From assembly GCF_018332695.1 (NCBI RefSeq), contig NZ_BOQN01000016.1, forward strand, positions 1 to 64,000: a stretch of 64,000 nucleotides of DNA, written 5' to 3'. A model generated the notes under the pieces. That model saw nothing but the letters and a program-made list of their open reading frames with translations. It searched no databases and was not told the DNA's origin. Below are positions 6,753 to 30,809 of the stretch, piece after piece (the stretch's first letter is position 1; every line of letters begins with the position of its first letter). A program made the position numbers and the translations under genes. Source of the DNA: Paractinoplanes toevensis (GTDB lineage Bacteria; Actinomycetota; Actinomycetes; Mycobacteriales; Micromonosporaceae).

Positions 6753-6794
6753 GGTCGGTCAAGCTACCCGCGTCGAGAGAGTTACGTCAATGTC

Positions 6795-6882
6795 TGTAAC
6801 AAATTCGCATTACCTGAATACGTCCAGGTGGGAGAGCTGTTGACATGGACGGCACTCGATAGATAAAACACTGAAACAAATT
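6795..6882. promoter_or_regulatory. Candidate ROK half-sites in divergent intergenic region
   Basis: TGTAACAAATT (6795-6805) and TGAAACAAATT (6872-6882) are near-identical AT-rich direct repeats 77 bases apart in otherwise GC-rich DNA. Their AACAAATT core resembles half-sites bound by XylR/NagC-type ROK repressors. One lies near the leftward operon start, the other just upstream of the transporter ribosome binding site, so a looped or dual repression of both transcripts is plausible. Assignment to the ROK protein at 618-1820 is inference. Confidence 0.4.
6840..6868 (+). promoter_or_regulatory. Putative sigma-70-type promoter of the sugar ABC operon
   Basis: TTGACA at 6840-6845 is followed after 16-17 bases by GATAAAA (6862-6868). 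It lies 31 bases upstream of the GTG of the solute-binding protein, and the second AACAAATT repeat directly follows it, a position where a bound repressor would block initiation. Confidence 0.5.
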
Positions 6883-6898
6883 GACGAAGGGATCGATC

Positions 6899-8206
6899 GT
6901 GAACACTGTTGACCGGCGCGGGGCGCTGAAGCTCGCCGGCCTGGCCGGGTTGGCCGCCACCCTCCCCGCCTGTGGGCGTGGGTTCGGCGGGGGCGGCGAC
7001 CAGAAGGGTGACGCGGTCGAGCTGAACATGGTCTGGTGGGGTGACGCCGCGCGGGCCGAGAAGACCCAGAAAGCCCTCGACCTGTTCCACACCGCCAATC
7101 CCGGCATCCGGGTGCGCACCGAGTACCAGGACTCCTCGCCGTACAAGGACAAGCTGGTCACCCGGTTCGCCGCCGGCGATCCGCCGGATCTGATGGCGAT
7201 GCGCACCGACAGCCTCCGCGAGTACGCGAACCGCGGCGCCCTGCTGGATCTCGCCCAGCAGGGCGGCAAGCTCGACCTGTCCGGCCTGACCGATTCCGCC
7301 CGCGGCCTGGGCGTGGTCGGCCGGCAGAACTTCGGGGTGCCGTCCGGTCTGAACGCCATCGGCTTCGTCGTCGACAAGGCGCTGACCGACAAGTTCGGGG
7401 TGCAGATCCCGGACGGCGACACCTGGTCCTGGGAGGACCTGGCCACGTTCGCCAAGCAGGTCACGACGGCCAGCGGCGGCAAGGTCTACGGCACGAACTT
7501 CGAGGTCTGGACGATCGCCAACCTCATCGTCTGGACCCGCCAGCACGGCGAGGATTTCTACACCGCCGACGGCAAGCTCGGGATCACCGCTGCCACGATG
7601 ACCGGCTGGCTGGCGATGGTGCAGAAGATGCGGGCCGACAAGGCCTTCCCACCGGCCGGCTTCATCGACCCGAACGGCGGCGCGTCGGCCGCCCAGTCCT
7701 ACATCGCCAAGAAGGCGATCGCGTCGCAGATCATCCCGACCAACAACTTCCTCACCTTCGACAAGGTCTGCGGCGGGCAGTTGCAGCTGCTGCGGATCCC
7801 CGGCGAGACGCAGGGCGCGCGGCGCGGCCAGTCGATCGACACGCCCGCGCTGTGGTCGGTGGCGGCGAAGTCGAAGCACCCGGCCGAGACGCTCACCCTG
7901 CTGAACTTCCTGGTCAACGACGTGGCCGGGGCGAAGGCGGCGGGCACGACGCGGGGCGTTCCGGCCAGCCGGCCGGTGGCGACCGCGATCACCCCCGGGC
8001 TGGAGACCGACGATCAGCGGGCCTCGGCGTACCTGGCGGAGTTGCAGAACGAGAAGCTGCCGCCGTCGTACTCGTATCCGATCGGCGCCTCCAAACTCAC
8101 CAACATCCTCAAGTCGATCAGTACGGAGGTGGAGTTCGGCCGCAAGACCCCGGCGGCCGGGGCAGCCGAGTTCGTCGACGCGGGCCAGAAGGCTCTGTCG
8201 GCGTGA
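6899..8206 (+). CDS. Sugar ABC transporter substrate-binding lipoprotein
   Basis: 435 residues. The N-terminus (NTVDRRGALKLAGLAGLAAT then LPAC) shows a twin-arginine-like start and a lipobox, so the protein is a membrane-anchored lipoprotein. The body is a type-1 extracellular sugar-binding protein: NMVWWGDAARAEKTQKAL, YQDSSPYKDKLVTRFAAGDPP, and WSWEDLATFAKQV. The GTG at 6899 is chosen because GAAGGG sits 7 bases upstream; a TTG at 6881 would add six residues. Its stop overlaps the permease start (GTGA). Context with GH43 and pectinolytic enzymes suggests uptake of plant cell-wall oligosaccharides; which one is not determined. Confidence 0.92.
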   Translation: MNTVDRRGALKLAGLAGLAATLPACGRGFGGGGDQKGDAVELNMVWWGDAARAEKTQKALDLFHTANPGIRVRTEYQDSSPYKDKLVTRFAAGDPPDLMAMRTDSLREYANRGALLDLAQQGGKLDLSGLTDSARGLGVVGRQNFGVPSGLNAIGFVVDKALTDKFGVQIPDGDTWSWEDLATFAKQVTTASGGKVYGTNFEVWTIANLIVWTRQHGEDFYTADGKLGITAATMTGWLAMVQKMRADKAFPPAGFIDPNGGASAAQSYIAKKAIASQIIPTNNFLTFDKVCGGQLQLLRIPGETQGARRGQSIDTPALWSVAAKSKHPAETLTLLNFLVNDVAGAKAAGTTRGVPASRPVATAITPGLETDDQRASAYLAELQNEKLPPSYSYPIGASKLTNILKSISTEVEFGRKTPAAGAAEFVDAGQKALSA

Positions 8207-9069
8207 GGAAGGACCGGGCCGCCTACCTCTTCCTGCTGCCGTGGCTGGTCGGCATCCTCTTCACGGTCGGCCCGTTCGTCGTCTCGCTGTACCTCGCCTT
8301 CACCGACTACAACCTGCTCACTCCCCCGCACTGGTCCGGTCTGGCCAACGTCCGGGAGATGATCGGCGACGTCCACCTGCATCAGTCGCTGAAGGTCACC
8401 TTCATCTACACGCTGGTCTCGGTGCCACTCTCGCTGGGTGCGGCCCTCGCGGTCGCGATGGTCCTGCACCGGGGCGTACGGGGACTGGCCGTCTACCGCA
8501 GCATCTACTACCTGCCGTCGCTGCTGGGCAGCAGCGTCGCCATCGTCATGCTGTGGCGCTACCTGTTCGGCTACCAGGGCGTGGTCAACCAGTTCCTCGG
8601 CCGGCTCGGCATCCAGGGGCCGGGCTGGACGTCCGATCCGCACTTCGCGCTGAGCACGCTGATCCTGCTGCACGTGTGGACGTTCGGCGCGCCGATGGTG
8701 ATCTTCCTGGCCGGGCTGAAGCAGATCCCGGCGATGTATTACGAGGCCGCCGCGATGGACGGCGCGTCCGGGTGGCGGCAGTTCCGGTCGGTCACGTTGC
8801 CGCTGCTCAGCCCGATCATCTTCTTCAACCTGGTGCAGTCGATGATCGCGTCGTTCCAGACCTTCACCCAGGGCTACGTGATGAGTGGCGGCACCGGCGG
8901 CCCGGCCGAGTCGACCCTGTTCTCCAACCTCTACCTCTATCAAAAGGGGTTCGGGGAGCTGGACATGGGCTACGCGTCGTCCCTGGCCTGGCTGCTGCTG
9001 ATCATCATCGCCGGCTTCACGGCCGTCAACTTCCTGGCCGCCCGCTACTGGGTCTTCTACGAGAACTAG
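8203..9069 (+). CDS. Sugar ABC transporter permease (MalF-type)
   Basis: 288 residues, six hydrophobic segments starting with AYLFLLPWLVGILFTVGPFV. The EAA loop that contacts the ATPase is EAAAMDGASGWRQFRSVTLP. The GTG at 8203 overlaps the TGA of the binding protein; a longer open frame upstream merely shadows the binding-protein gene. It forms the importer with the next gene. No ATPase gene occurs in the window, as is usual in actinomycetes where one MsiK-type ATPase serves many sugar importers. Confidence 0.92.
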   Translation: MRKDRAAYLFLLPWLVGILFTVGPFVVSLYLAFTDYNLLTPPHWSGLANVREMIGDVHLHQSLKVTFIYTLVSVPLSLGAALAVAMVLHRGVRGLAVYRSIYYLPSLLGSSVAIVMLWRYLFGYQGVVNQFLGRLGIQGPGWTSDPHFALSTLILLHVWTFGAPMVIFLAGLKQIPAMYYEAAAMDGASGWRQFRSVTLPLLSPIIFFNLVQSMIASFQTFTQGYVMSGGTGGPAESTLFSNLYLYQKGFGELDMGYASSLAWLLLIIIAGFTAVNFLAARYWVFYEN

Positions 9070-9076
9070 GACTGCC

Positions 9077-9949
9077 ATGACGCTGACGTTGAGCCGTTTG
9101 GTTGCCGCGCGGCGGGAGAAACTGCCGCGCCGGGTGCGGTGGCTGCGCCATCTCGGGCTGACCGCGGTCGGTGCGCTGATGATGTACCCGCTGATCTGGC
9201 TGGTCTCCAGCTCGCTGAAGTCCAGCAACACGGTCTTCACCGACGAGGGGCTGTGGCCGCACGCCTGGGCGCCCGGCAACTACCCGCGCGGCTGGACGTC
9301 GCTGCCGGAGTCGTTCGACGTCTACCTGATCAACTCGCTGATCATCGTGACGCTGAGCATCGCCGGCAATCTGATGTCCTGCTCCCTCGCCGCGTACGCC
9401 TTCGCCCGGTTGAGGTTCACCGGCCGCCGGCTGTTCTTCGCGCTGATGCTGGGCACGATGATGCTGCCCGGGCACGTGCTGACCATTCCCCGGTACGTGC
9501 TGTTCGACAAGCTGGGCTGGCTCAACACGTACTACCCGCTGCTGGTGCCGCACTTCCTGGCCACCAACGGGTTCTACATCTTCCTGATGGTGCAGTTCAT
9601 GCGGTCGCTGCCGACCGAACTGGACGACGCGGCCCGGATCGACGGCTGCGGCCCGTTCCGCACCTTCTGGAAAGTGATCATGCCGCTGTGCCTGCCCGCG
9701 TTCGCCACCACCGCCATCTTCACCTTCATCGCGGTGTGGAACGAATTCTTCGAACCGCTGCTCTACCTCACCGACCCGCAGCTCTACACGGTGCCGCTGG
9801 CCCTGCGGCAGTTCATGGACTCCGAGGGCCAGAGCCAGTGGGGCGAGATGTTCGCGATGTCGTTCGTCTCCCTCGCCCCGGTGATCGGCTTCTTCATCGC
9901 CGGTCAGAAGTACCTGGTGAAGGGCATCGCCACGACCGGACTCCGGTGA
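9077..9949 (+). CDS. Sugar ABC transporter permease (MalG-type)
   Basis: 290 residues. After a basic N-terminus there is a first membrane span (GLTAVGALMMYPLIWLVSS), a periplasmic-type loop, then five more spans. The EAA-type loop is DDAARIDGCGPFRTFWKVIM. It starts 7 bases after the first permease and completes the heterodimeric channel. The 52-base gap to the downstream CBM13-pectinesterase gene and common orientation suggest cotranscription, which would couple secreted depolymerases with uptake. Confidence 0.92.
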   Translation: MTLTLSRLVAARREKLPRRVRWLRHLGLTAVGALMMYPLIWLVSSSLKSSNTVFTDEGLWPHAWAPGNYPRGWTSLPESFDVYLINSLIIVTLSIAGNLMSCSLAAYAFARLRFTGRRLFFALMLGTMMLPGHVLTIPRYVLFDKLGWLNTYYPLLVPHFLATNGFYIFLMVQFMRSLPTELDDAARIDGCGPFRTFWKVIMPLCLPAFATTAIFTFIAVWNEFFEPLLYLTDPQLYTVPLALRQFMDSEGQSQWGEMFAMSFVSLAPVIGFFIAGQKYLVKGIATTGLR

Positions 9950-10001
9950 CTCACGCGTCGGCCGCCTGCCACCGGGCGGCTCGAACGAAAGGACCCCTCT
10001 C

Positions 10002-11414
10002 ATGGGAAGGCTGAGTCTCAAAAGGCAAGGGTTGCTTCTGGCGATCCTGGCACTGGTCATTCCCGGTGCCGCAATCGCGCTGTCCTCCCCGGCAGCCGCC
10101 GCCCCCGCCACAGGTACCGCGTATCAACTGAAGGTCACCAAGAGCGGCATGTGCATCGACGTCCCCGGTGCCTCCACCGCCAACGGTGCGCTGCTGCAGC
10201 AATGGGGCTGCACGGCCGATTCGAAGTGGCAGCAGTTCACGCTGACCGCGAGCGGCTCGAACTACCTGCTCGTCAACGCGAACAGCGGCAAGTGTGTCGA
10301 CGTGCCGGACTGGTCCACCACCTCCGGCGTCCAGCTGCAGCAGTACACCTGCGTCGCCTCGCAGGCCAACCAGAACTGGAAACTGGTGGCCAGCGGCTCC
10401 GGCACCTACCAGATCGTCAACGTCAACAGCGGGCTCTGCATCAGCGACAAGGACGCCTCGACCACCTCGGGCACGGCGATCATCCAGGAGACCTGCACGG
10501 CCAACACCAACAAGCAGTGGGCGTTCGCCACGGCCGGCTCCAGCACCGGTGCGGTCGTCGCTTCCGACGGCACCGGTCAGTACACGACCATCCAGGCCGC
10601 GATCGACGCCGTCCCGGCCGGCAACACCACCCGGCGGACCATCACCGTCAAGGCCGGCACCTACCGCGAGATCGTGACGATCCCGTCGACCAAGCCCTAC
10701 GTCACGCTGCAGGGTCTCGGCTCCTCGGCGTCGCAGACGGTGATCGTGAACAACCACAGCTCGGCCGGCGGTTACGGCACGTCGGGCAGCGCGACCGTCT
10801 TCGTCAACGGCCACGACTTCGCCGCCACCAACATCACCCTGTCCAACGACTACGGCGAAGGCAGCCAGGCCGTCGCGGTCAACGTCAACGCCGACCGGTC
10901 GGTCTTCACCAACGTCCGCTTCCTCGGCGCGCAGGACACCCTGCTGGTCAACGCCTACCGCTCCTACTACGTCAACTCGTACGTCGAGGGCACCGTCGAC
11001 TTCATCTTCGGCGGCGGCACCGCGGTCTTCAACACCTCCTCGATCTACCAGAAGCGCTCGACCGGCGGGCCGATCACCGCCGCGAAGACCGACGCCGGCG
11101 TCACCTACGGTTTCCTGTTCGCCAAGTGCACGATCACCGGCGCCACCAACAACACCACCCAGCTGGGCCGGCCGTGGGGCGCCGACGCCCAGGTCCTCTA
11201 CCGCGAGTCCTCGCTGAGCGCGACGATCGCGACCGCGCAGCCGTGGACCGACATGTCCAGCAACTCGTGGAAGAACGCCCGCTTCTACGAATACAAGAAC
11301 ACCGGCTCGGGCGCGACCACCAACAGCAACCGGCCGCAGATGTCCGACTCGACCGCCACCAACTACACCCCGCAGAAGTACCTCGCCGGCACGGACGGAT
11401 GGAACCCGCTATGA
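10002..11414 (+). CDS. Secreted CBM13-pectinesterase (CE8)
   Basis: 470 residues. A signal peptide ends near AAAA-APATG (residue ~33). Residues ~37-180 are a ricin-type CBM13 trefoil with three QW-like repeats (NQNWKLV, NKQWAF). Residues ~185-460 are a CE8 pectin methylesterase beta-helix with all hallmarks: QAVAV (~288), AQDTLLV with catalytic Asp (~310), VDFIFGG with the second Asp (~332), and QLGRPWG with the arginine (~390). It removes methyl esters from pectin outside the cell, preparing substrate for the pectate lyase encoded next. The stop overlaps the lyase ATG (ATGA). Confidence 0.94.
   Translation: MGRLSLKRQGLLLAILALVIPGAAIALSSPAAAAPATGTAYQLKVTKSGMCIDVPGASTANGALLQQWGCTADSKWQQFTLTASGSNYLLVNANSGKCVDVPDWSTTSGVQLQQYTCVASQANQNWKLVASGSGTYQIVNVNSGLCISDKDASTTSGTAIIQETCTANTNKQWAFATAGSSTGAVVASDGTGQYTTIQAAIDAVPAGNTTRRTITVKAGTYREIVTIPSTKPYVTLQGLGSSASQTVIVNNHSSAGGYGTSGSATVFVNGHDFAATNITLSNDYGEGSQAVAVNVNADRSVFTNVRFLGAQDTLLVNAYRSYYVNSYVEGTVDFIFGGGTAVFNTSSIYQKRSTGGPITAAKTDAGVTYGFLFAKCTITGATNNTTQLGRPWGADAQVLYRESSLSATIATAQPWTDMSSNSWKNARFYEYKNTGSGATTNSNRPQMSDSTATNYTPQKYLAGTDGWNPL
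10225..10526 (+). repeat. CBM13 coding repeat, copy 1 (partner 11607-11908)
   Basis: Comparing this stretch with 11607-11908 (offset 1382) I find only two differing bases, in the Ala/Val codon after CTCGTCAAC. Homology continues upstream at lower identity to the end of the signal-peptide region. Synonymous sites are also identical, so this points to recent duplication or ongoing gene conversion and not protein-level selection alone. Such direct repeats could recombine and delete the CE8 catalytic region. Confidence 0.92.
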
Positions 11415-12811
11415 GGAAAATTCTGGTACTCGTGCTCCTGGCGGCCGCTGTCCTGGTCGGCAGTTCCACCACGGCGTACGCCGCACCCGCCACCGGCGCG
11501 GCCTATCAACTGAAGGTCACCAAGAGCGGGATGTGCGTCGACGTCCCCGGTGCCTCGACCGCCAACGGCGCACTTCTCCAGCAGTGGGGCTGCACCGACA
11601 ACGCGAAGTGGCAGCAGTTCACGCTGACCGCGAGCGGCTCGAACTACCTGCTCGTCAACGTCAACAGCGGCAAGTGTGTCGACGTGCCGGACTGGTCCAC
11701 CACCTCCGGCGTCCAGCTGCAGCAGTACACCTGCGTCGCCTCGCAGGCCAACCAGAACTGGAAACTGGTGGCCAGCGGCTCCGGCACCTACCAGATCGTC
11801 AACGTCAACAGCGGGCTCTGCATCAGCGACAAGGACGCCTCGACCACCTCGGGCACGGCGATCATCCAGGAGACCTGCACGGCCAACACCAACAAGCAGT
11901 GGGCGTTCACCGCTCTGTCCGGCGGCCGCACCTGGTCCAACACGGCCGACGGCTTCGCCACCGGAACCACCGGTGGTGCGGGCGGCACGACGGTCACCGT
12001 CACGACCTATGCCGACCTCTTGAAATACGCGACATCAAGCTCCGCGTACGTCGTCAAGGTCAGCGGAACCATCACCGTCCCGACCTACGGCTACGAAATC
12101 CCGGTCACGTCGAACAAGACCATCATCGGGATCGGCACGACCGGGCGGATCAAGGCCGGCGGATTCTTCCTCGGCGCCGGGGTCAAGAACGTCATCATCC
12201 GGAACCTGACCATCGGTGACACCGCGGTGGCCTCGGACGACCCCGATGACAAGGACTTCGACTACGACGGCATCCAGATGGACACCGCCGACCACGTGTG
12301 GATCGACCACAACACCTTCACGAACATCAACGACGGTTACATCGACAGTCGCAAGGACACCAACTACGTCACCGTCTCGTGGAACCAGATGGGCAACCAC
12401 AACAAGACGTTCGGCATCGGCTGGACCGAGAACGTGATCGCCCGGATGACCATCCACCACAACTGGATCTACAACAGCAACCAGCGCAATCCCAGTGCTG
12501 ACAATCTGTTGTACGCGCATCTCTACAACAACTACCTGCAGAACGTCACGTCATACGGCAACTACGCGCGTGGCAGCACCAAGATGGTCATCGAGAACAG
12601 CTACTTCGAGAACGTGGTGAACCCCTACTACCCCGACTCGACGGCCCAGCTCAAGCAGAGCGGCAGCGTTCTGACGGGCTGCAGCGGCAGACAGGAGACG
12701 CTCGGTTCCGCGTTCACGCCGAGCAGTTTCTACTCGTACACCTTGGACGCGGCCTCCGCCGTACCGTCGGTAGTCAAGACCTACTCCGGCCCGCAGGCCG
12801 GCATTTCCTGA
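11411..12811 (+). CDS. Secreted CBM13-pectate lyase (PL1)
   Basis: 466 residues. Signal peptide MRKILVLVLLAAAVLVGSST with cleavage near AYA-APATG. Residues ~28-170 are a CBM13 almost identical to that of the upstream pectinesterase. Residues ~175-466 are a PL1 lyase: FATGTTGGAGG, DYDGIQMDTADHVWIDHN, YIDSRKDTNYVTVSWNQM, HHNWIYNSNQRNPSADN with the catalytic-position Arg (~358), and AHLYNNYLQNV. It should cleave de-esterified polygalacturonan by beta-elimination. The ATG at 11411 overlaps the preceding stop; the much longer open frame upstream is a shadow. A strong terminator follows at 12817. Confidence 0.94.
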   Translation: MRKILVLVLLAAAVLVGSSTTAYAAPATGAAYQLKVTKSGMCVDVPGASTANGALLQQWGCTDNAKWQQFTLTASGSNYLLVNVNSGKCVDVPDWSTTSGVQLQQYTCVASQANQNWKLVASGSGTYQIVNVNSGLCISDKDASTTSGTAIIQETCTANTNKQWAFTALSGGRTWSNTADGFATGTTGGAGGTTVTVTTYADLLKYATSSSAYVVKVSGTITVPTYGYEIPVTSNKTIIGIGTTGRIKAGGFFLGAGVKNVIIRNLTIGDTAVASDDPDDKDFDYDGIQMDTADHVWIDHNTFTNINDGYIDSRKDTNYVTVSWNQMGNHNKTFGIGWTENVIARMTIHHNWIYNSNQRNPSADNLLYAHLYNNYLQNVTSYGNYARGSTKMVIENSYFENVVNPYYPDSTAQLKQSGSVLTGCSGRQETLGSAFTPSSFYSYTLDAASAVPSVVKTYSGPQAGIS

Positions 12812-12816
12812 CCGGC

Positions 12817-12846
12817 GCCGGCCGGAGCCGAACGGCTCCGGCCGGC
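12817..12846. terminator. Bidirectional intrinsic terminator
   Basis: A perfect 13-base-pair stem (arms 12817-12829 and 12834-12846) with a GAAC loop is followed by CCCTTTT on the + strand. It lies between the convergent ends of the pectate lyase (12811) and the lipoprotein (12855). Confidence 0.9.
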
Positions 12847-12854
12847 CCCTTTTC

Positions 12855-13331
12855 TCAGGCCCCGCAGGCCTTGTCCAGATCCTTGCTGAGGGTCTGGAAG
12901 TCCTTCGCCAGGAAGTCGTCCGGCTTGCTGCTCTTGGCGCCCTGCGCCAGCTCGGCGGCGGTCTTCTCGACGGCCGCCTTCAGCTCGGGGTCGGCCACCG
13001 CCTCGGCCTGCGCCCGCACCTTCTTGGCCATGTCGCCGAAGCTCGTGCGCAGGTGGTCGTTGACCTCCTTGGTGCTCCAGCGCTCATCGATCGACTTCAC
13101 CGCGTTGTCGGCGATCTGCACGCTGCCGTCGATCACCACCTTGGTGACCTCGGTGCAGACCTCGTTCCTGGTCGGCCCGGCCGGCGTGGCCGACGTGGCC
13201 GGCGCCGCCGCGGTGGTGGCGCTGGTCGCCGGGGCGGCCGCCGTCGGCGTGGCCTGGTCATCGCAGCCGGCGGCCAGTGCGGTGACGGTTATCAAAGCAA
13301 GCGGCAGGAAGCCGCGAAAACGTCGAGACAC
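12855..13331 (-). CDS. Small secreted lipoprotein, unknown function
   Basis: 158 residues. Signal sequence with lipobox (ALAAGC) followed by an Ala/Thr/Pro linker (~30 residues) and a charged, mainly helical domain bounded by two cysteines: NEVCTEVTKVV at the front and LDKACGA at the end. I chose the GTG at 13331 because GGGGGAG lies five bases upstream; the longer ATG at 13370 lacks one. Length, linker, helical domain and terminal cysteine match the protein at 51818-52294, so the two belong to one design. It diverges from the SMP-30 gene. Not recognised as a named family. Confidence 0.75.
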   Translation of the reverse strand: MSRRFRGFLPLALITVTALAAGCDDQATPTAAAPATSATTAAAPATSATPAGPTRNEVCTEVTKVVIDGSVQIADNAVKSIDERWSTKEVNDHLRTSFGDMAKKVRAQAEAVADPELKAAVEKTAAELAQGAKSSKPDDFLAKDFQTLSKDLDKACGA

Positions 13332-13405
13332 TTCAACTCCCCCGTGGGTGGATCTTTCGGCGGGCAGCATAGCCGCGCCGGTCGATGTCTCGCCGCCCCA
13401 TAACC

Positions 13406-13435
13406 TTGACAGCCGGGCCCGCAGCTGGTGACTAT
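13406..13435 (+). promoter_or_regulatory. Putative promoter of SMP-30 gene
   Basis: TTGACA at 13406-13411, 18-base spacer, then GACTAT at 13430-13435. The element overlaps the alternative upstream ATG at 13428, which supports translation from ATG 13461. Confidence 0.5.
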
Positions 13436-13460
13436 GCGTTCACTTATGAGGAGGATCTCC

Positions 13461-14327
13461 ATGGTCGCGGATCCGTCAACCGTCATCTCCGAGCTGCACT
13501 TCGCCGAGGCCCCACGCTGGCACGAAGATCGTCTCTGGTTCTCCGACTTCTACGCCGGCGTGGTCCGCTCGGCCCGCGCCGACGGTTCCGACCTGCGGGT
13601 CGAGGCCACGGTTCCGGAGCAGCCGTCCGGCCTGGGCTGGCTGCCCGACGGCCGCCTGCTGGTCGTGTCGATGCGCGACCGGAAGATCCTCCGCCGCGAG
13701 CCGGACGGCTCCCTGGTCGTCCACGCCGACCTGGGCGAACACGCCACCGGCCACCTCAACGACATGGTCGTCGACGCGGCCGGCCGGGCGTACGCCGGCA
13801 ACTTCGGCTACGACCTGATGGCCGGCGCCCCGATGGCCGCGGCCGCCCTGCACCGGGTCGACCCGGACGGCACGGTCACCGAGGTGGCCGCGGACCTGTG
13901 GTTCCCCAACGGGGTAGTCATCACCGACGACAACGTCCTGCTGGTGAACGAGACCTTCGGCAACCGGGTGACCGCCTTCGACGTGACCCCAGCCGGCGAC
14001 CTGACGAACCGCCGGGTGTGGGCCGAGTTCGGCCCGGTCCCGACCGAGCGCGAGTTCGAGAAGGTCATGCCGCAACTGGTGGTGGCCCCGGACGGCGCCT
14101 GCCTGGCCCCCGACGGCGCCCTGTGGATAGCCGACGCGATCGGCGCCCGCCTGCTGCGCCTGGTGGACGGCGAGATCGCCGGCGAGGTGCATCCCGGCAC
14201 CCCGGTCTACGCCTGCGCGCTGGGCGGCCCCACCGGCCGGACGCTGTTCGCCTGCGCCGCCCCCGACTTCTTCGAACACGCCCGCCGAGCCGCCACCGAG
14301 GGCCGAATAATCGCCATCCCCACCTAG
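13461..14327 (+). CDS. SMP-30/gluconolactonase-like protein
   Basis: 288 residues of the six-bladed SMP-30/regucalcin fold. The metal ligands are in place: Glu in FAEAPRWH near the N-terminus, Asn in LWFPNGVVI, and Asp in GALWIADAIG; TGHLNDMVVD is a further family motif. The family hydrolyses sugar lactones with Ca, Zn or Mn. ATG 13461 is chosen because GAGGAGG lies about 6 bases upstream; ATG 13428 would add 11 residues but overlaps the predicted promoter. It stands alone, so its lactone is unknown. Confidence 0.85.
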   Translation: MVADPSTVISELHFAEAPRWHEDRLWFSDFYAGVVRSARADGSDLRVEATVPEQPSGLGWLPDGRLLVVSMRDRKILRREPDGSLVVHADLGEHATGHLNDMVVDAAGRAYAGNFGYDLMAGAPMAAAALHRVDPDGTVTEVAADLWFPNGVVITDDNVLLVNETFGNRVTAFDVTPAGDLTNRRVWAEFGPVPTEREFEKVMPQLVVAPDGACLAPDGALWIADAIGARLLRLVDGEIAGEVHPGTPVYACALGGPTGRTLFACAAPDFFEHARRAATEGRIIAIPT

Positions 14328-22355: not shown

Positions 22356-25300
22356 TCAGAGCCGGTCGACGGTCAGGGTGAGCAGACCCTGATCCAGGCC
22401 GATCACCAGGTATCCGCCGATCCATCGGCACGTCCGGGCACGGTGGTGGACGTGAATGGTGCGCAGCCGGCGGCCGGTACGCGGATCCCACAGCCGGATC
22501 GTCCGGTCCAGGCTCGCGGACGCGAGGACCTGCCGGTCGCCGACAACGCCGGGCGCCAGACCGGTGACCTCGGCGGTGTGGCCGGAGAGCACCCGGATCG
22601 GGCGGCCGTCCGGTGGTTCCCACAGCCGGATCGTCCGGTCGGCGCCGGCGGAGATCAGCGTCGGCCGGCCGTCGACGGTTGCCGTGCTCAGCGCGTTCAC
22701 GGCGCTCTGGTGGCCGAGTCGTTCCCAGAGCAGCGTGCCGTCGGCGGCCCAGAACCGAACCACACCGCTCTTGTCGGCGGACGCCAGCGCCTCGGTCCCG
22801 TCCCGGTCGACCACCACGAGGGAGGTGACCCAGGCGCGGTGCCCGACGAGACGCCCGATCACCTCGGCATTGTGCGGGCGCCACAGGCGCACCGTCTCGT
22901 CGTCGCCGGCCGAGGCCACCACGAGGCCGCCGGTGGTCCGCAGGACGGCGACCGCGTTGACCGGCTCCAGGTGCTCGCGAAACTCACGGATCGGGCTCGG
23001 GTCGGCCGAGTCCCAGAGATGCACCATCGCGTCGGCACCCGCGGTCGCCAGCAGCGCGGGCTCTTCGTCCTCGATGACGCAGATCGCGTTCACCGGGCTG
23101 GCGCCGGCTCGCAGTTCCGTGCGGGCAGCGCCGGTCGTCAGGTCCCAGAGCCGTACGGCACCGTCGTTTCCGCCGGTCGCCACGAGCGGTCCCGCCTCTC
23201 CCGCGACGGCGCAGACGGCGCCGATCGAGCCGGGCAGCACGCTCTCGGCGAAGGCCTGGGGCCGCTCTCCAGCCGGATCCCACAGCCGCACGGTGCCGTC
23301 GTCGCCGGCGGTCGCGAGCATGTGCCGGCCGGGCAGCGGCAGTTCGCAGACGGCCCGGATCCAGCTGGCCTGGCCGCGCAGGACCTGTCGTTCGGTCCCG
23401 GTCTCGGTCTCCCACAGCCGGATCGTGCCGTCCTCGCCGGTCGATGCGAGGAGGTCGCCGTCGCGGGTCCGTACGGTGCACAGGTCGGTGATCGGTCCGC
23501 CGCCGGTGTCGAGGCAACGGACCGCCTCGCCGGCGACCGGGTCCCACAGGCGGACGGTTCCGTCGTAGCCGCCGGACGCGAGCAGCACTCGGCCGCCGGC
23601 CCGCAGGGCGTACAGGGTGGTCACCCATCCGTTGTGTCCGCGCAGGACACCTCGGCGAACGCCGTGGACGGGATCCCACAGGCGGATGTATCCGTCGTAA
23701 CCGGTCGACGCGATCAGCCCGTACGGCCCGACCGGGACGTGGGTGACCGCGGTGACCCAGCCGGAGTGGCCGGTCAGGGTGTGCAGCAGGGTGCCACCGG
23801 TCACGTCCCACACCCGCACCGTCCGGTCGTCGCCCGCCGAGACCAGCAGATCGCCGCCGGGGCCCATCGGAACGGCGCAGATGTTGCGGACCCAGTCGTG
23901 GTGTCCGGTGAAACTGTGCAGCTGAACGCCGGATCTGGGATCCCAGATGCCGATCGTGCCGTCGTGGCCGGCGGTGGCGAGCAGCGTGCGGCCGCCTGCG
24001 ACGACCGCGCAGACGCCGCGGATGCAGTCGTCGTGGCAGCTGAACACGCGGACGGTCTGGTTGGTGAGCGGATCCCAGAGGCGTACGGTGCCGTCCTCGC
24101 CGGCCGAGGCGAGCAGGTTTCGCCCGTCGACCGCGATCGGACACACGTCGTAGACGCCGAGCGAGTGCCCCTCGAAGACGGTGCGTTCCAGCCGGGGCGG
24201 AGTGTGTGCCCATCGGGCCTGATACGGCCCTGTGGAGGCGTCGATGCCGGCACTCAGGCCGTCGATCCGGTCGACCACCGAGAACATCGCGGCCCGTTCG
24301 GCCGGTTCCGCGCCCACCGCCCGCGGCGTCCGCTGGAGAAGTAGCCGGCGGGCCCGTCCGGATGCGGTCCGGGCGGTGTCGGCGACCGGTAGCAGCCGGT
24401 CGAGGTGAGCGTGCAGCAGATAGCCGTCGTCGTTGAGCAGATCGTCGACCGCGCCGACCCGGGCGGCGTGCGGGGAGAGGGAGCGCAGCAGGTAGTCGGG
24501 TGCCGCGCCCCAGCCGACGCTCCGGCCATGCTGGATCCAGGCGGTCACCAGTCGTTGCTCGTCCGTCTCGCGACGGCCGAGCTCCCGGCGGTGCGCGAGC
24601 AGGGCGTCGTTGAGGGCCTGATGGAAGAGCCGGTACGTCGGGCGGGCCGGGTCACCGGTCTCTACCAGGAAGTTGGCGGCCGATGAACGCGCGAAGTCGT
24701 CCAGCTGCTCGCCGGTGACGAGGACGCCGAGCGCCTGGATCGCCCCCTGCCACAGCGAGATGGGCAGTCCCGGTGTCTCGGCGTAGGCGAGCGCGGTCAG
24801 CACGAGCCGGGCCGGTGCGGTGCCGGCGTCGGGAAGGTACTGAAGGTAGTCGTTGAGCGTGTCGCCGACGGTCGGCGTGAACGAGACGTGCCGGGGGTCG
24901 GCCGGCTCCAGGTCGCGCAGGGCACGGGTGCGGGCCACCAGGCCGGCAATGAGGAAGTTCCGGTCGGCGAGGGCGGCGATGCTCGCGGCCACCGGTGCGG
25001 CGACGGCCGGATCCGAGTACGCCCCGGGACCGCGCGGCCCGCCGAGCTGGAGCGTCGCCTGTGCGTAGTCGGCAAGGTCCTCCGGCGAGAAGAACTCCGG
25101 CGAGTCCAGGTCGATAGTGCTCGCGTCCGATCCGAAGGTTCCGAGCAGGTCACCGAGATCGTCCGTACGCCGGGTGCCGACGACGACCTGCACGCCCAGG
25201 GTGGCACAGGTGCGGGCGAGCGGGACCAGGACGTCGTCGATCAGGGCGCGGGTCTGGTCGGGACCGGCGGCCTCGTCGAGGGCGTCGACCACGAGGTTGA

Positions 25301-26393
25301 AGCGGGCCGGCCGGGACGTGAGCCGGTCACGCAGGGCCGGCATGAGGTCGACGGTGGCCTTGGGCAGGCCCACCCCGGCACCACGGGCGATCTCGGTGGC
25401 GACCTCGAGCGCGGTCTTGCCCTTGACGTGGACCGCACACGCCACCGAGCCGACGGTGGCTCGCTCGGCGACGTCGTCCGGCGGCAGGGCCGCACTGATC
25501 TCCGGGTCGGCGGTGGTCACGATCCGGCCCAGCACGGCGGATTTTCCCACGCCCGGCGAGCCGGTGACGATCATCGGCCGTCCGGCCGGCTCGGCCCGGT
25601 CGAGGAACTGGCGCAACCGCCGCAGGGCAGCGACCCGGCCGCGGAACCGGGAGCCGGTCTCGGCGCTCGACGCGACCCCGCGGGCGCGGGGCAGCCAGTG
25701 CCGGTGCGCCTCGTCGTCGGTGGCCAGCGTCCAGCCCCAGGCGGCGTGGGTCGGCTCGTCGGCGTCACCCACCCGCCAGGTGTCGAGAGTCGAGAGTTTC
25801 AGGCCGGGCAGGTGCTCATCGGCATAGGCCAGGGTGAGCGCGAGCCCGGAGCCGGTGTTGGCATCGGCCTTGACGATGATTCCGACGACGGCGTCGTAGT
25901 CGGGCGACCACAGCGCGGCGCCGCTGAAACCCTGCGCGACACCTTCCCGGACGTCGGCGGTGAGCCGCACGCAGCCGTAACTGCCCTCGTCACCGATTAC
26001 TCCGGCGGCGGGGCGACCGCCGTCGCCGTACCGCGGGAAACCGTAGGCACGCCAAGGCAGGCCGACCAGGTCCGGCCCCGGCGGGCGGCGCAGCCGGGCC
26101 GGGACGACCGACGGTGGCACCGGTTCGTCCAGATCCAGCAGGACGACGTCGAGGCCCTGTTCGTCGTGGCCGTCGAAACGACACGCGCGGACCCGCCGGC
26201 GCACTCCGGGCGGCACGTGGAAATCGCGCGGGAAGGCGACCCACAGCTCGCGGAGCGTGCCGGCCGGGAACGCGACATGGTGGCAGGCGAGAACCAGGGT
26301 GTCGGCGACGACCAGGCCCGCGCCCACCGGTTCCTCATCGGTGGGCGTCGCATGCAGTGCGACCGCCCAGGTTTCCGGCGGTGAGCCGGTCAC
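22356..26393 (-). CDS. Trypsin-like protease / STAND-type NTPase / 14-repeat WD40 protein
   Basis: 1345 residues, no signal peptide. Residues ~10-190 are a trypsin-like protease with an intact-looking triad: His in LACHHVAFPAG (~37), Asp in GLDVVLLDLDE (~82), Ser in QGFSGAALWS (~157). Residues ~240-560 are a P-loop NTPase with Walker A TGSPGVGKSAVLGRI (~276) and Walker B FNLVVDALDEAAG (~368), of STAND/NACHT type. Residues ~560-720 are helical. From ~735 there are thirteen clear WD repeats (LLASAGEDGTVRLWDP and variants) and a degenerate fourteenth, enough for two seven-bladed propellers. This is the architecture of a signal-sensing switch: WD40 senses, NTPase oligomerises, protease cuts. The upstream Trypco1 gene supports this. 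GTG start follows GAGGG. Confidence 0.9.
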   Translation of the reverse strand: MTGSPPETWAVALHATPTDEEPVGAGLVVADTLVLACHHVAFPAGTLRELWVAFPRDFHVPPGVRRRVRACRFDGHDEQGLDVVLLDLDEPVPPSVVPARLRRPPGPDLVGLPWRAYGFPRYGDGGRPAAGVIGDEGSYGCVRLTADVREGVAQGFSGAALWSPDYDAVVGIIVKADANTGSGLALTLAYADEHLPGLKLSTLDTWRVGDADEPTHAAWGWTLATDDEAHRHWLPRARGVASSAETGSRFRGRVAALRRLRQFLDRAEPAGRPMIVTGSPGVGKSAVLGRIVTTADPEISAALPPDDVAERATVGSVACAVHVKGKTALEVATEIARGAGVGLPKATVDLMPALRDRLTSRPARFNLVVDALDEAAGPDQTRALIDDVLVPLARTCATLGVQVVVGTRRTDDLGDLLGTFGSDASTIDLDSPEFFSPEDLADYAQATLQLGGPRGPGAYSDPAVAAPVAASIAALADRNFLIAGLVARTRALRDLEPADPRHVSFTPTVGDTLNDYLQYLPDAGTAPARLVLTALAYAETPGLPISLWQGAIQALGVLVTGEQLDDFARSSAANFLVETGDPARPTYRLFHQALNDALLAHRRELGRRETDEQRLVTAWIQHGRSVGWGAAPDYLLRSLSPHAARVGAVDDLLNDDGYLLHAHLDRLLPVADTARTASGRARRLLLQRTPRAVGAEPAERAAMFSVVDRIDGLSAGIDASTGPYQARWAHTPPRLERTVFEGHSLGVYDVCPIAVDGRNLLASAGEDGTVRLWDPLTNQTVRVFSCHDDCIRGVCAVVAGGRTLLATAGHDGTIGIWDPRSGVQLHSFTGHHDWVRNICAVPMGPGGDLLVSAGDDRTVRVWDVTGGTLLHTLTGHSGWVTAVTHVPVGPYGLIASTGYDGYIRLWDPVHGVRRGVLRGHNGWVTTLYALRAGGRVLLASGGYDGTVRLWDPVAGEAVRCLDTGGGPITDLCTVRTRDGDLLASTGEDGTIRLWETETGTERQVLRGQASWIRAVCELPLPGRHMLATAGDDGTVRLWDPAGERPQAFAESVLPGSIGAVCAVAGEAGPLVATGGNDGAVRLWDLTTGAARTELRAGASPVNAICVIEDEEPALLATAGADAMVHLWDSADPSPIREFREHLEPVNAVAVLRTTGGLVVASAGDDETVRLWRPHNAEVIGRLVGHRAWVTSLVVVDRDGTEALASADKSGVVRFWAADGTLLWERLGHQSAVNALSTATVDGRPTLISAGADRTIRLWEPPDGRPIRVLSGHTAEVTGLAPGVVGDRQVLASASLDRTIRLWDPRTGRRLRTIHVHHRARTCRWIGGYLVIGLDQGLLTLTVDRL

Positions 26394-26403
26394 GCCGCCG
26401 CCC

Positions 26404-26727
26404 TCAGCTCGCGGGATGCGACGCGGTGTCGGGCTGCCAGGTCAGCGTGACCTCGAAGCTCGCCTCGCTGGCGGCCTTGGCCACGACCCAGTTCGCCGCG
26501 CCGGTGACCTTGAGACCGAACTTGACCTGCACGGTGTCGGGAGCCAGCCGCTTCACGTCGTCGAGCACGGCGCGGGCCGCCTCGATCGACGGCCCAGCGG
26601 CCTCCCGGACCCACCCCGCGACGTCGCCGACGCCGGCCGGCTGGAAGCCGGGCAGCGGGTCGAACTCGAAAGCCGCCACGGTCTTCTCGTCCACCTGGTA
26701 ACGCACGACCTCGGACGGCACCGTCAT
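26404..26727 (-). CDS. Trypsin-co-occurring protein (Trypco1 / CU044_2847 type)
   Basis: 107 residues. The order of the conserved blocks (VVRYQVDEKTVAAFEFDPLP, GDVAGWVREAAGPSIEAARA, VQVKFGLKVTGAANWVVAKA, ASFEVTLTW) matches the Trypco1 family, small beta-rich proteins found next to trypsin-like peptidase genes in actinobacterial conflict loci. It ends 10 bases before the protease-NTPase-WD40 gene and is surely cotranscribed with it. The role is proposed to be a partner or regulator of the protease, not established. Start ATG 26727 follows a close GGAGG; GTG 26721 gives a more usual spacing. Confidence 0.82.
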   Translation of the reverse strand: MTVPSEVVRYQVDEKTVAAFEFDPLPGFQPAGVGDVAGWVREAAGPSIEAARAVLDDVKRLAPDTVQVKFGLKVTGAANWVVAKAASEASFEVTLTWQPDTASHPAS

Positions 26728-27048
26728 CAACCTCCATCGAGCCGCGCCGGACGCACACGAAAGACGGCGGGCCGCACAGCCGCCTCGCCTCGGGACATGC
26801 TTCCCGGCGATCCGGTAATGCGCAATGGCCCATCGGCTGATCAATTCGAGACACCTGGCGGGTCTGCGGAAATATGGCCGCCGAGCTGCGGAGTCGAAGA
26901 TCAGAATTGTGCTTTGTCGGGTTTTTGCGGCAACTCGCGGGCTCTTGCGCCCCTTCGGAAGCGTCGGCAGAATCGGCCCGAGAACTCACCTTTCATGATC
27001 GAATTTCCTGGGCATCGGCGCATTCACGCGCCGGAAAGAGGCATCCAC
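26728..27048. promoter_or_regulatory. Divergent regulatory region of the conflict island
   Basis: 321 bases separate the leftward Trypco1-protease unit from the rightward winged-helix-ATPase unit. The centre (about 26860-26930) is AT-richer than the surroundings (GAAATATGG, ATCAGAATTGTGCTTT, GGGTTTTTGCGG), as expected of promoters, but I could not settle on -35/-10 pairs or an operator palindrome. The ribosome site of the rightward unit is GGAAAGAGG at ~27033. No gene seen. Confidence 0.5.
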
Positions 27049-27678
27049 ATGCCGGCAAAGGCACTCACCTCAGTGCAGCGCGCGACGCTGCTCGCCCTCA
27101 TGGTCAAGGCCGGCCCGACGCCGCTCGCGGTCCTGTCCAACGAGGTGAAGATCAGCCTCAAGCCGGATAAACGCAACGAACTGGTCGACCTGAAACTGAT
27201 CACAGTCGCCGGGAAACCGATGACCCTCGAACTCACCGAACAGGGCTGGGCGGAATCGATCAAGGAGTTCCGGGCGGAGGTTCCACCCCGCGCCGGCTCC
27301 CTGGGCGGGGTGCTCTATCTACTGCTCGGTTTCCTTCGCGATTATCTCGAACGACACGAATTGTCGGCGGGTGAGTTCTTCGCGTCGGCCGCCCCGAAGG
27401 CGACAATTCCCGACGGCACCATAGAAGATCAAATTCGGAAGGCGTACGCCGACCTGGCCGCCGAGCCGGGGGCGTACCTGATGCTCGAGGATCTGCGCGC
27501 CGCCCTGCCTCGAGCCGACCGGCCGAGTGTCGACGCCGCCCTGCTCCGGCTGGACCGCACGTCCGCCGCCCACCTGATCCCGGAGTCCAACCAGAAGGTC
27601 CTGACGCCGGGCCAGCGTGCCGCGGCAATTCGCATCGGCAACCAGGACATGCATCTCGTCGCCATCTCGCCGGGATGA
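27049..27678 (+). CDS. Tandem winged-helix protein preceding AAA-HerA gene
   Basis: 209 residues. The N-terminal ~70 residues are a winged helix (LTSVQRATLLALMVKAGPTP, EVKISLKPDKRNELVDLKLI, MTLELTEQGWAE). The C-terminal ~75 residues look like a second winged-helix unit (AYLMLEDLRAALP, PSVDAALLRLDR, LIPESNQKVLTPGQRAAA). No catalytic motif. ATG 27049 follows GGAAAGAGG by 7 bases; the open frame extending upstream is not homologous. The stop overlaps the start of the ATPase gene (ATGA), so the two proteins probably work as a complex, with this one recognising DNA or modulating the ATPase. Confidence 0.78.
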   Translation: MPAKALTSVQRATLLALMVKAGPTPLAVLSNEVKISLKPDKRNELVDLKLITVAGKPMTLELTEQGWAESIKEFRAEVPPRAGSLGGVLYLLLGFLRDYLERHELSAGEFFASAAPKATIPDGTIEDQIRKAYADLAAEPGAYLMLEDLRAALPRADRPSVDAALLRLDRTSAAHLIPESNQKVLTPGQRAAAIRIGNQDMHLVAISPG

Positions 27679-30600
27679 GGGACGAGGAGCGGCGCGCGCT
27701 TGCCGCCCTGCGCTTCAACTGGGCACCCACCCCGGACGACGTGTGGCAGCCCAGCCCGTTCCATGTGGAGGGCCTGCACCGCAACGTGGTGCAAACCGTG
27801 CTGGACGGTGTGCGCGAGGCGGCCCGGAGCACCGAGTCCAGCCCGATCGGGGTGGCCATCCTCGGCCAGCGCGGAACCGGCAAGACCCACCTGCTCGGCG
27901 CGGTACGCGAGAAGGTGCAGGCCGAGGGTGGATATTTCTTCCTCGTCAGCCTGCTGGAGACCAAGGCCTTCTGGCAGAGCACCGCGCTGTCGGTGCTCGA
28001 CGGCCTGGCCCGGCGGTCGGCCGACGGCGGCACCCAGCTCACCACGTTCCTGCGGCGGATCGGCGACCTCGTCAAGGCACCCCGGACGGTGCGCCGGGCG
28101 ATCGCCGGCGAGACCGAGTTGACCCGGCCCGCCGTCGACGCGTTCGTCGACCTCATCCGCAAGCACCACCGTCAGGTCGGTATGGAGTGCCAGGACACCG
28201 CCCGGGCGCTCGCCCTGTACGCCGCCGAGGAGTCGCGGGTGTCGTACATCGGCTACCACTTCCTCTGTTCCAACGACGAGGAGGAGCCCGGCGACCGCGC
28301 CGCCTGGGGGATGCGCCGCGGCAAGCGGTCCGCGCAGGAGGTGGTCCGGGACATCTCCCGGCTGCTCGCTCTCACCGGGCCGACGCTGATCGCCGTCGAC
28401 CAGATCGACCTGCTCATCGCCCAGTCGGCGAAGGCCTCCGATCCCCGGCACGGTCAGGAGAACGACTGGCAGCAGGCGTTGCTGCTGGAGCAGATCGCCG
28501 GTGGACTCATGGCGCTGCGGGAAACGACACGCCGGTCCCTGTCGGTGGTGACGTGCCTGCCGAAGACCTGGAACGACATCGCCACCGAGGCCACCGACAC
28601 GGTGCCGGATCGTTTTCACAAGGCGGAACCGTTGCGGCGGCTGCCGACCGCGGCGATCGCCCGGGAGTTGGTGGAGCGGCGGTTCGCGTCGCTGTTCGAC
28701 GACGACTTCACGCCGCCCTACCCGACCTGGCCGATCCGGCCGGCGGCGTTCGCGCAGGCGGTCGATTTCACCCCGCGGGAACTCCTGAAGATCATCGACA
28801 ATCATGTCCGGGCCTGCCTGGCGAGCGGCACCGTCGCCGAGCTCACCCATCTCGGCCCCGCGTCCACCGGCCCGACCGACGCCGCGGCGGTTCCCGCCCG
28901 GCCGCCCGCCGACGACCAGCTCCGCGACATGGACGCCCTCTTCGCCAAGCTGGTGGGTGACGCCGATCCTGGCCCGGCGCTCGACCACGGGCGCGAGGAC
29001 ACCGAGGTTCCCGTCCTGCTCGCGGCCGGCCTCACGGCGTGGATCGCCGAACAGGGCGCGGCGGGCGAGGCGTTCAGCATCGACCCGCAGGCGGGCGGCA
29101 AACCGGCCCTGCACGCCCGGCTACGCCGGAGTCTCGGCAGCGATGACGCCGATGACGTCCGGGGCGAGGACGAGGAGCACTGGGCCTTCCGGGCGATCGG
29201 CGCTGCGCACCACATCGCCGTGCTGAACCGCATCAAGAACGCGGTGACCACGGCCGGGCTGACCAAGGGCATCACCAAGCGGCGGCTGTTCCTGCTGCGC
29301 AACGTCGAGACGAATCCGTGGTCGAAGGGCACCCGCACCCAGGAGGTGATCCGCGACTTCGGCGACGCCGACGGCGAGACACTGCCCTTCACCGATGACG
29401 ACATCCGCCGGCTCATGGCGCTGTCGAGGCTGATCGCGGACTACGGCGCGGAACAGCTGCTCGGGTGGTTCCGCGAGCGGCGGCCCACCGCCTCGATCGG
29501 CCTTCTGCGACACGCACTGCGCGCGGCCACCGCGCCACCACCGTCGGCTGCCGAGCCACCGGAGTCCCGGGGCGTGCCGCTCGGCCTGGCGCTGGACGGC
29601 AGTGGTCCGGTGACGATCGACCTCGAGGCACTGCGGCGGCACACCGCGATCTTCGCCGGATCCGGCTCCGGCAAGACCGTGCTCATCCGGCGCCTGGTGG
29701 AGGAGTGTGCGCTGCGAGGTGTCTCCGCCATCGTGCTCGACCCCAACAACGACCTGGCCCGGCTCGGCGATGCCTGGCCCGACCCACCGGGGGCCTGGAC
29801 CGGCGACGACCCAGACCGGGCCGCCGAATATCTCCGCACCACCGAAGTCGTCGTCTGGACGCCCAACCGGGAGAGCGGCCGGCCGCTCAGCTTCCAGCCC
29901 ATCCCCGACTTCGCCGGCATCCTCGACGACCCGGACGCCTTCACCGCGGGCATCGACGCCGCCGTGGCCGCGCTGGCGCCGCACGCCAAGGCCGACGGCA
30001 AGACCGACAAGGCCGTCCTCGGCCGCGCGGTCCTGCGCGAGGCCATGCTCAGCTTCGCCCGCAGCGGCGGCAACGATCTGCGCGGCTTCGTCAACCTGCT
30101 CAACGCGCTGCCGGAGGGCGTCAGCCTGCTCGACGACGCCACCAAGCTCGCCACCAGCATGGCTCAGCTACTGAAGGCCGCCATGGTCAACGACCCGATG
30201 TTCGGTGGCAACGGCGCACCGGTCGATCCGGGTGAGCTGCTCACCCCGGCGGCCGGTTATCGCGCCCGGGTGTCGGTGATCAGCTTCGTCGGTCTGCCCG
30301 ACGACCAGCAGCGGCAGAACTTCGTCAACCAGGTGCAGATCGCGCTGTTCGCCTGGATCAAGCGGAACCCGGCCGGCGACCGCCCGCTCGGCGGGCTGTT
30401 CGTGATGGACGAGGCGCAGACGCTCGCGCCGTCCGGCGCGATGACCGCGTGTACGCACAGCACGCTCGCCCTCGCCTCGCAGGCCCGGAAATACGGTCTT
30501 GGCCTGGTGTTCGCCACCCAGGCACCGAAGGCGCTGCACAACCGGATCCCCGGCAACGCGGCCACCCAAATGTTCGGCCTGCTCAACAGTCCGACGCAGA

Positions 30601-30809
30601 TCGCGGCGGCCCAGGAGATGGCGCGGGCCAAGGGCAGCGGGATCGACGATGTGGGCCGCCTGCGGACCGGTCAGTTCTACACGACGGTGGAGGGCGGCCC
30701 GTTCGTGAAGCTACAGGCGCCGCTGTGCCTGACCCATCACCCGCGAAGCCCGCTGTCCACCGAGGAAGTGCTGGAGCGAGCCGTACGCGAGGGCGATAGC
30801 CGGGTCTGA
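27675..30809 (+). CDS. Fused AAA-type ATPase and HerA-like DNA translocase
   Basis: 1044 residues with two separate P-loop modules. Module 1 (~1-390): Walker A AILGQRGTGKTHLLGAV (~65) and Walker B TLIAVDQIDLLIA (~238), of ORC/STAND-like AAA type. A linker region (~390-640) is helical and charged. Module 2 (~640-1030) is HerA/VirB4-like: Walker A FAGSGSGKTVLIRRLV (~661), Walker B GGLFVMDEAQTLAP (~908), LGLVFATQAPKALHNRIPG and NAATQMFGLLNSP in the hexameric-translocase order. HerA relatives pump DNA and usually pair with a NurA, Sir2 or other nuclease; none is encoded here. It overlaps the winged-helix gene and ends ~90 bases before an unrelated acyltransferase. I read it as the motor of a defence-type system. 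Confidence 0.88.
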   Translation: MRDEERRALAALRFNWAPTPDDVWQPSPFHVEGLHRNVVQTVLDGVREAARSTESSPIGVAILGQRGTGKTHLLGAVREKVQAEGGYFFLVSLLETKAFWQSTALSVLDGLARRSADGGTQLTTFLRRIGDLVKAPRTVRRAIAGETELTRPAVDAFVDLIRKHHRQVGMECQDTARALALYAAEESRVSYIGYHFLCSNDEEEPGDRAAWGMRRGKRSAQEVVRDISRLLALTGPTLIAVDQIDLLIAQSAKASDPRHGQENDWQQALLLEQIAGGLMALRETTRRSLSVVTCLPKTWNDIATEATDTVPDRFHKAEPLRRLPTAAIARELVERRFASLFDDDFTPPYPTWPIRPAAFAQAVDFTPRELLKIIDNHVRACLASGTVAELTHLGPASTGPTDAAAVPARPPADDQLRDMDALFAKLVGDADPGPALDHGREDTEVPVLLAAGLTAWIAEQGAAGEAFSIDPQAGGKPALHARLRRSLGSDDADDVRGEDEEHWAFRAIGAAHHIAVLNRIKNAVTTAGLTKGITKRRLFLLRNVETNPWSKGTRTQEVIRDFGDADGETLPFTDDDIRRLMALSRLIADYGAEQLLGWFRERRPTASIGLLRHALRAATAPPPSAAEPPESRGVPLGLALDGSGPVTIDLEALRRHTAIFAGSGSGKTVLIRRLVEECALRGVSAIVLDPNNDLARLGDAWPDPPGAWTGDDPDRAAEYLRTTEVVVWTPNRESGRPLSFQPIPDFAGILDDPDAFTAGIDAAVAALAPHAKADGKTDKAVLGRAVLREAMLSFARSGGNDLRGFVNLLNALPEGVSLLDDATKLATSMAQLLKAAMVNDPMFGGNGAPVDPGELLTPAAGYRARVSVISFVGLPDDQQRQNFVNQVQIALFAWIKRNPAGDRPLGGLFVMDEAQTLAPSGAMTACTHSTLALASQARKYGLGLVFATQAPKALHNRIPGNAATQMFGLLNSPTQIAAAQEMARAKGSGIDDVGRLRTGQFYTTVEGGPFVKLQAPLCLTHHPRSPLSTEEVLERAVREGDSRV

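Follow-up and report, generated by a model that had tools for sequence, protein, structure and literature searches.

A trypsin-STAND locus of Paractinoplanes toevensis, best read as a HerA-type anti-invader module with a variant effector

In the window, i.e. the whole stretch of 64,000 nucleotides that was analysed from Paractinoplanes toevensis (contig NZ_BOQN01000016.1, positions 1 to 64,000), a four-gene locus was found that is best read as a variant, in its effector, of HerA-type anti-invader modules, with a mechanism that we infer. By comparison of homologous loci, it is a real, co-inherited unit of four genes. The fuller proposal, an anti-invader module in which a constant core has had its nuclease swapped for Trypco1 and a trypsin-STAND-WD40 protein that would act by STAND-triggered proteolysis, is given about an even chance of being correct. 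The features of the locus are as follows.

22356-30809, whole four-gene locus: Trypco1 and trypsin-STAND-WD40 genes diverging from a winged-helix gene and an AAA-HerA fusion gene
22356-26393, minus strand: trypsin-STAND-WD40 protein, 1345 aa, GTG start
26404-26727, minus strand: Trypco1, 107 aa (PF19493, E=1.3e-17; NCBIfam NF041216, E=3.2e-17)
26728-27048, no strand: divergent intergenic region, 321 bases
27049-27678, plus strand: two-winged-helix protein, 209 aa, domains at about residues 8-75 and 125-206
27675-30809, plus strand: AAA-HerA fusion, 1044 aa
28401-28403, plus strand: codon of Gln243 in AAA-HerA, at the usual place of the Walker-B glutamate of AAA ATPases

The earlier note on this DNA had described two two-gene units facing outward over 321 bases. 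This architecture was confirmed by the gene coordinates and domain matches, and the protease-type arrangement was found again in 42 unique loci, 34 of which include Trypco1. Ten bases separate the Trypco1 stop from the protease start, the winged-helix stop and the HerA start overlap by 4 bases, and the 321-base region presumably contains the putative promoters for both directions. The distance from Trypco1 to the winged-helix gene was 232-378 bases in those 21 of 25 trypsin-STAND loci that have Trypco1. The genome of origin yielded a single Trypco1 match, adjoining its single full-length AAA-HerA gene (three further AAA-HerA matches were partial); since there is one of each, side by side, and the arrangement recurs, this neighbourhood exceeds chance. 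The flanks of the window locus consisted of metabolic and regulatory genes, and no defence island was indicated by Pfam analysis of eight flanking proteins.

The domains of the trypsin-STAND-WD40 protein were assigned partly by reading the sequence. The protease domain covers about residues 1-215, with His39, Asp82 and Ser157 in place, and is followed by the STAND P-loop at 277-285 (GSPGVGKS) and a DALDE motif at 370-374, which were taken as the trypsin catalytic positions and the STAND motifs. C-terminal of the STAND part, WD40 was matched with E=1e-85 (Pfam), and about 14 repeats were counted by eye.

No Pfam family above the cut-off was obtained for the winged-helix protein. Its fold was visible only in the AlphaFold model (pLDDT 92.2, pTM 0.57) and in weak Foldseek matches to MarR/PadR-like proteins (E>=0.014, best 0.014). 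All 106 unique loci had the gene immediately ahead of AAA-HerA, at a distance of 20 bases or less in 105, and in some loci it was detected only with relatives as queries. The AAA-HerA protein was matched by Pfam to the DUF87/HerA central domain (E=1.4e-12) and, under the cut-off, to an ORC-CDC6-like domain (E=0.014). Its N-terminal AAA ATPase contains Walker A at residues 64-71 and Walker B as D242-Q243-x-D245; a middle alpha/beta region (410-608) and the HerA domain follow, the latter (about 630-1044) with Walker A at 662-668, D912-E913 and Q949. Walker A of the AAA domain as well as Walker A, Walker B and the Thr-Gln sensor of HerA were kept in all 106 unique homologues, and the AAA Walker B had the form D-Q-x-D, with glutamine, in every one of them. 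Gln243 occupies the usual position of the AAA Walker-B glutamate. With glutamine at this position ATP binding is usually possible and hydrolysis is blocked. Because of this replacement, the AAA domain of the fusion is likely to be locked in the ATP-bound state.

Foldseek analysis of the AAA-HerA model (mean pLDDT 83.8, pTM 0.61) gave HerA-NurA (8.7e-9) and the DndH C-domain (4.5e-7) as matches, along with SIR2-HerA, VirB4 and the T4 coupling protein. CDC6 (1fnn, 1.0e-3) and BrxC (1.2e-3) were also obtained, the CDC6 match being marginal and without a query range. The best PADLOC match of the HerA half was mad8 (E=2.3e-21).

Two candidate domains of the fusion protein were considered. An inactive nuclease (iREase) domain between AAA and HerA was without sequence support: the order of strands and helices in residues 441-571 would be compatible with it, but hhalign to three Mrr domains gave a probability of 0.1 and an unrelated control 0.3, and a search of the middle region from 31 members returned no nuclease family. 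Asanoa-type loci lacking Trypco1 have a long HerA linker, but the idea that it contains a new effector domain was discarded because the linker consists of low-complexity repeats; the expansion of the linker before HerA was observed in L186, L187, L190, L197 and L062, which belong to a Trypco1-less lineage with a degenerate protease.

Of 300 genomes from the same family, 184 contained relatives of AAA-HerA (E<=1e-20), and of 394 from the class, 45 did (E<=1e-60). A scan of public genomes resulted in 575 pattern matches, 551 of which were relatives. For the context analysis, the best 80 of these 551 were combined with 38 further regions and the window, and removal of 13 copies from the resulting 119 contexts left 106 unique loci. 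Among the best 80 of the 551 relatives, 49 were from Micromonosporaceae and 15 from Streptosporangiaceae; the named trypsin-STAND loci were from Micromonosporaceae without exception (13/13). No AAA-HerA was found in 50,697 phage records, the 37 pattern matches in viral contigs included no true relative, and 3 of 72,556 plasmid records contained a match. A relative from outside the actinobacteria, 37% identical over 95% of the query, is located on Methylobacterium aquaticum plasmid NZ_AP014705.1 (737835-741005). Trypco1 was present in 186 of the 300 genomes of the family, many of which had more than one copy, and thus has many other settings.

Partner genes of the core were determined by profile search in all six frames of the 6.5 kb upstream of the core in the 106 unique loci. 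The commonest partner was a DUF559 nuclease (51/106), designated c4, which occurred in 49 loci without and in 2 with c10, a P-loop protein that matched TPR weakly. c10 alone was found in 14 loci, trypsin-STAND in 25 (21 with and 4 without Trypco1), and 16 loci had other contents. c4 matches DUF559 at E=2e-12, and a purpose-written pattern recovered its D-x(n)-E-x-D-G-x-x-H motif in 47 of 48 cases. Nuclease and trypsin-STAND were never combined in one of the 106 loci, c4 being absent from all 25 trypsin-STAND contexts. c4 and c10 were always co-directional with the core and trypsin-STAND was always divergent, in 25/25 loci and in the 23/23 readable loci of a further set. Another 20 loci from the 45 class genomes contained c4 (14), c10 (1) or nothing (5), and trypsin-STAND in no case; gene calling there followed a GC3 heuristic that merges or misses genes, so that the winged-helix gene was tagged in only 15 of the 20. 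In L228 (1316-11001), tandem AAA-HerA genes flank a DUF559 nuclease gene.

Several of the remaining loci have neighbours of defence type. AIPR genes follow the core in L065, L069, L133 and L142; the L133 copy is AbiU according to PADLOC, and in that locus (5511-13885, Kibdelosporangium persicum) pPIWI-RE is situated just upstream of the pair. In L064 (72-14041), genes for CARF-HEPN, a DrmC-like PLD and a weakly CBS-like protein are transcribed away from the pair, with homologues in L070, and GajB-like helicase and DruE-like genes lie on the other side. In L132 (5825-8275), the pair is immediately preceded by a TIR gene and by a ParA-like gene that carries a CATASP domain, with homologues in L143. 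DUF4365 was found upstream in L126, with a homologue in L071. A DUF7159 gene, which is not a known effector, is common to L137 and L141, the oxidoreductase upstream in L149 is probably unrelated, L068 has no clear partner within the searched region, and L086 and L150 terminate at contig ends. The alternative partners DUF559, AIPR/AbiU, CARF-HEPN, DrmC-like PLD, pPIWI-RE and TIR place the core with anti-invader genes, which bears out the association with conflict and defence that the earlier note had suggested for the HerA core.

In a quick HerA tree (LG+G4, unrooted, 106 proteins), the 25 trypsin-STAND loci and the contig-truncated L086 formed one clade (SH-aLRT 99), nested among the c4 and c10 clades. 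The partner labels required 21 changes on this tree, compared with 57.2 in shuffles; the labels predate the recognition of DUF559 in nine loci, and the 16 changes counted for DUF559 are too high. Parsimony on this quick, unrooted tree makes the nuclease the older partner, and the best reading is that it was replaced once, in Micromonosporaceae, by the STAND protease. The 25 loci were found in 15 flanking contexts if two shared families were needed to join contexts, or in 9 with one. Protein distances correlated with those of HerA for trypsin (r 0.88), STAND (0.86), WD40 (0.91), Trypco1 (0.84) and the winged-helix protein (0.80), and after correction for RpoB the partial r values were 0.84, 0.81, 0.87, 0.76 and 0.82, respectively (n = 19 genomes, with 18 in the case of trypsin and 16 in that of Trypco1). 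HerA and RpoB distances correlated at r 0.56, and species with RpoB about 2% apart carry HerA and STAND copies 33-43% apart. At the level of sequence, this shows that the four genes are passed on together; linkage alone could yield such correlations, and contact between the proteins is not implied. The earlier view of the four genes as one unit was thus upheld as co-inheritance, with one HerA clade, fixed divergence, 9-15 contexts and correlated distances. The expected co-occurrence of AAA-HerA with Trypco1 and trypsin-STAND in varied flanking contexts held for this clade; most relatives of the HerA unit are without Trypco1 or trypsin, which counts in part against it.

It is unlikely that the unit governs host development or stress (in a filamentous actinomycete, this might be the handling of chromosomes or the turnover of proteins) and that only the nuclease-bearing relatives serve defence. 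The ordinary genes around the window locus, the frequency of the HerA family (184/300 at E<=1e-20) and its absence from the phage records and viral contigs would agree with such a role, but the single copy in its own genome and patchy presence in the family, the 9-15 contexts of the 25 loci, the divergence of 33-43% where RpoB differs by about 2%, and the defence-type alternative partners all argue against it.

The relationship of Trypco1 to protease integrity was analysed in the 25 loci plus the 23 readable ones of 24 fetched (L200 was cut), i.e. 48 loci, reduced to 42 by removal of copies. Trypco1 was present in 34 of the 42; His-Asp-Ser was intact in 33 of these, and in L038 the protease frame breaks near its start, so that His is unreadable and Asp and Ser are present. 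The frame break of L038 may be real decay or a sequencing error. An adjacent Trypco1 was absent in 8 of 42, all with a dead or missing protease: His is replaced by Pro, Gln or Arg and Ser by Thr, Ala, Gly or Val, and L062 has no protease domain. The association of Trypco1 with a live protease gave p 7.6e-8 (Fisher's test, kinship ignored). On the tree, the co-loss corresponds to two independent events, one in L037/L077 and one in a group of six Asanoa-type loci, for which a sign test gave p 0.5, significance being out of reach with two pairs. Trypco1 may occur elsewhere in such genomes; that of L037 (G204) has three matches, and other Trypco1-less genomes may have some too. These distributions suggest that Trypco1 is retained only as long as the protease is functional. 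All eight Trypco1-less loci still keep the protein at the trypsin position, the winged-helix gene and HerA; because these dead-protease lineages retain the rest of the unit, proteolysis would not always be needed.

This persistence of the HerA core with STAND-WD40 after loss of protease and Trypco1 could also be expected of two separate systems, one a Trypco1-trypsin-STAND sensor and the other a HerA module, that share an intergenic region and are linked by co-transfer only, and so could the predominance of other partners beside the HerA core and the many, often multicopy Trypco1 genes of the family (186/300). We consider this improbable in view of the fixed divergent order (25/25 and 23/23 readable loci), the mutual exclusion of nuclease and trypsin-STAND, and the correlated distances, though linkage alone gives the same. 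Very improbable is an addiction-like arrangement with the STAND protease as a suicide effector restrained by Trypco1 and HerA as a trigger that responds to entering plasmids or ICEs and not to phage: the loci that do without Trypco1 are just those with a dead protease, as for an inhibitor, and the HerA/FtsK relatives include conjugation ATPases (VirB4 and T4 coupling protein by Foldseek), but an adaptor or a substrate predicts the same Trypco1 pattern.

With respect to known systems, the core resembles the published HerA/FtsK capture systems, which, in the text available, comprise Orc/CDC6, nuclease and wHTH parts and 'usually' include an active nuclease partner (PMC10853773). Common to both are a HerA/FtsK translocase and a winged-helix protein, an AAA ATPase of CDC6 type may be a further shared part, and the nuclease-bearing relatives of the locus also have an active nuclease. 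The HerA/FtsK domain with intact ATPase motifs and the winged-helix protein in the operon (two winged helices in the model, MarR/PadR-like matches) are present here, and an active nuclease partner occurred in 51 of 106 relatives and in none of the 25 trypsin-STAND contexts. Unlike the capture systems as described there, the locus has Trypco1 and trypsin-STAND-WD40 in place of a nuclease effector, AAA and HerA are fused, and no inactive nuclease domain was recognised by sequence; the word 'trypsin' does not occur in the main text of that paper (PMC10853773).

Adjacency of Trypco1 and trypsin is shared with the NTP-dependent conflict systems, where Trypco1 stands beside trypsin in MoxR-vWA-VMAP ternary systems; the main text of that paper mentions HerA solely in the title of a reference (PMC7159879). 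The listed Pfam matches, for the four proteins as well as for eight flanking ones, included neither MoxR nor vWA. Trypco1 was also reported beside DGR targets, without HerA in the text available (PMC10907252). HerA-NurA, HerA-SIR2 and HerA-DUF4297 are alike in having a HerA-type motor and a partner enzyme, in line with the Foldseek matches, but contain a free-standing hexameric HerA, and the motor here is fused to AAA and has no SIR2, NurA or DUF4297 partner. Of MADS, only the mad8 profile was matched, by the HerA half, and no other MADS model was found in the four proteins (PADLOC). BREX-related capture (BRC), a BREX-related relative described in PMC12839542, has a wHTH protein, HerA and perhaps the ORC/CDC6 AAA in common with the locus, but neither PglZ nor DUF6079 was found in the four proteins (Pfam, PADLOC). 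A full-text literature search returned no description of a HerA core combined with Trypco1 and trypsin-STAND; supplements, which like subscription papers lay outside it, may contain one. The earlier note had likewise not recognised the combination as a named system, which stands with the amendment that it is one form, distinguished by its effector, of a wider HerA module and not a free-standing invention.

For the anti-invader module, the following course of events is proposed. The constant core would pair a DNA-binding protein of two winged helices with a motor of two ATPases, a putatively CDC6-like AAA domain joined to an intact translocase of the HerA/FtsK type. A DUF559 nuclease would act with the core in most relatives, in place of which one Micromonosporaceae clade has the divergent Trypco1 and trypsin-STAND-WD40 pair. 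The core may load onto invading DNA and pump it; either the engaged core or a ligand sensed by the WD40 propellers would turn on the STAND NTPase, and clustering of STAND would activate trypsin, leading to cleavage of a cellular or invader protein. Trypco1 would be a dedicated partner of the active protease, perhaps an adaptor, inhibitor or substrate. A narrower version, in which a translocase-gated immune protease arose when a HerA capture module exchanged its nuclease output once for a STAND-switched trypsin, so that the sensing of invading DNA would lead to protein cleavage, with Trypco1 obligate for protease catalysis and discarded with a dead protease, is regarded as less likely than not.

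HerA/FtsK capture modules and Trypco/trypsin-STAND systems, treated apart in the cited papers as far as their available text goes, are linked by this locus, and its family displays the exchange of effectors on a constant motor core. New is the finding that the presence of Trypco1 follows protease integrity among 42 unique loci, but through two independent events only. Trypco1, hitherto named for its neighbourhood only, thereby gains a role that can be tested: from the natural lineages with a dead protease, it would be predicted to be relevant only with an active one.
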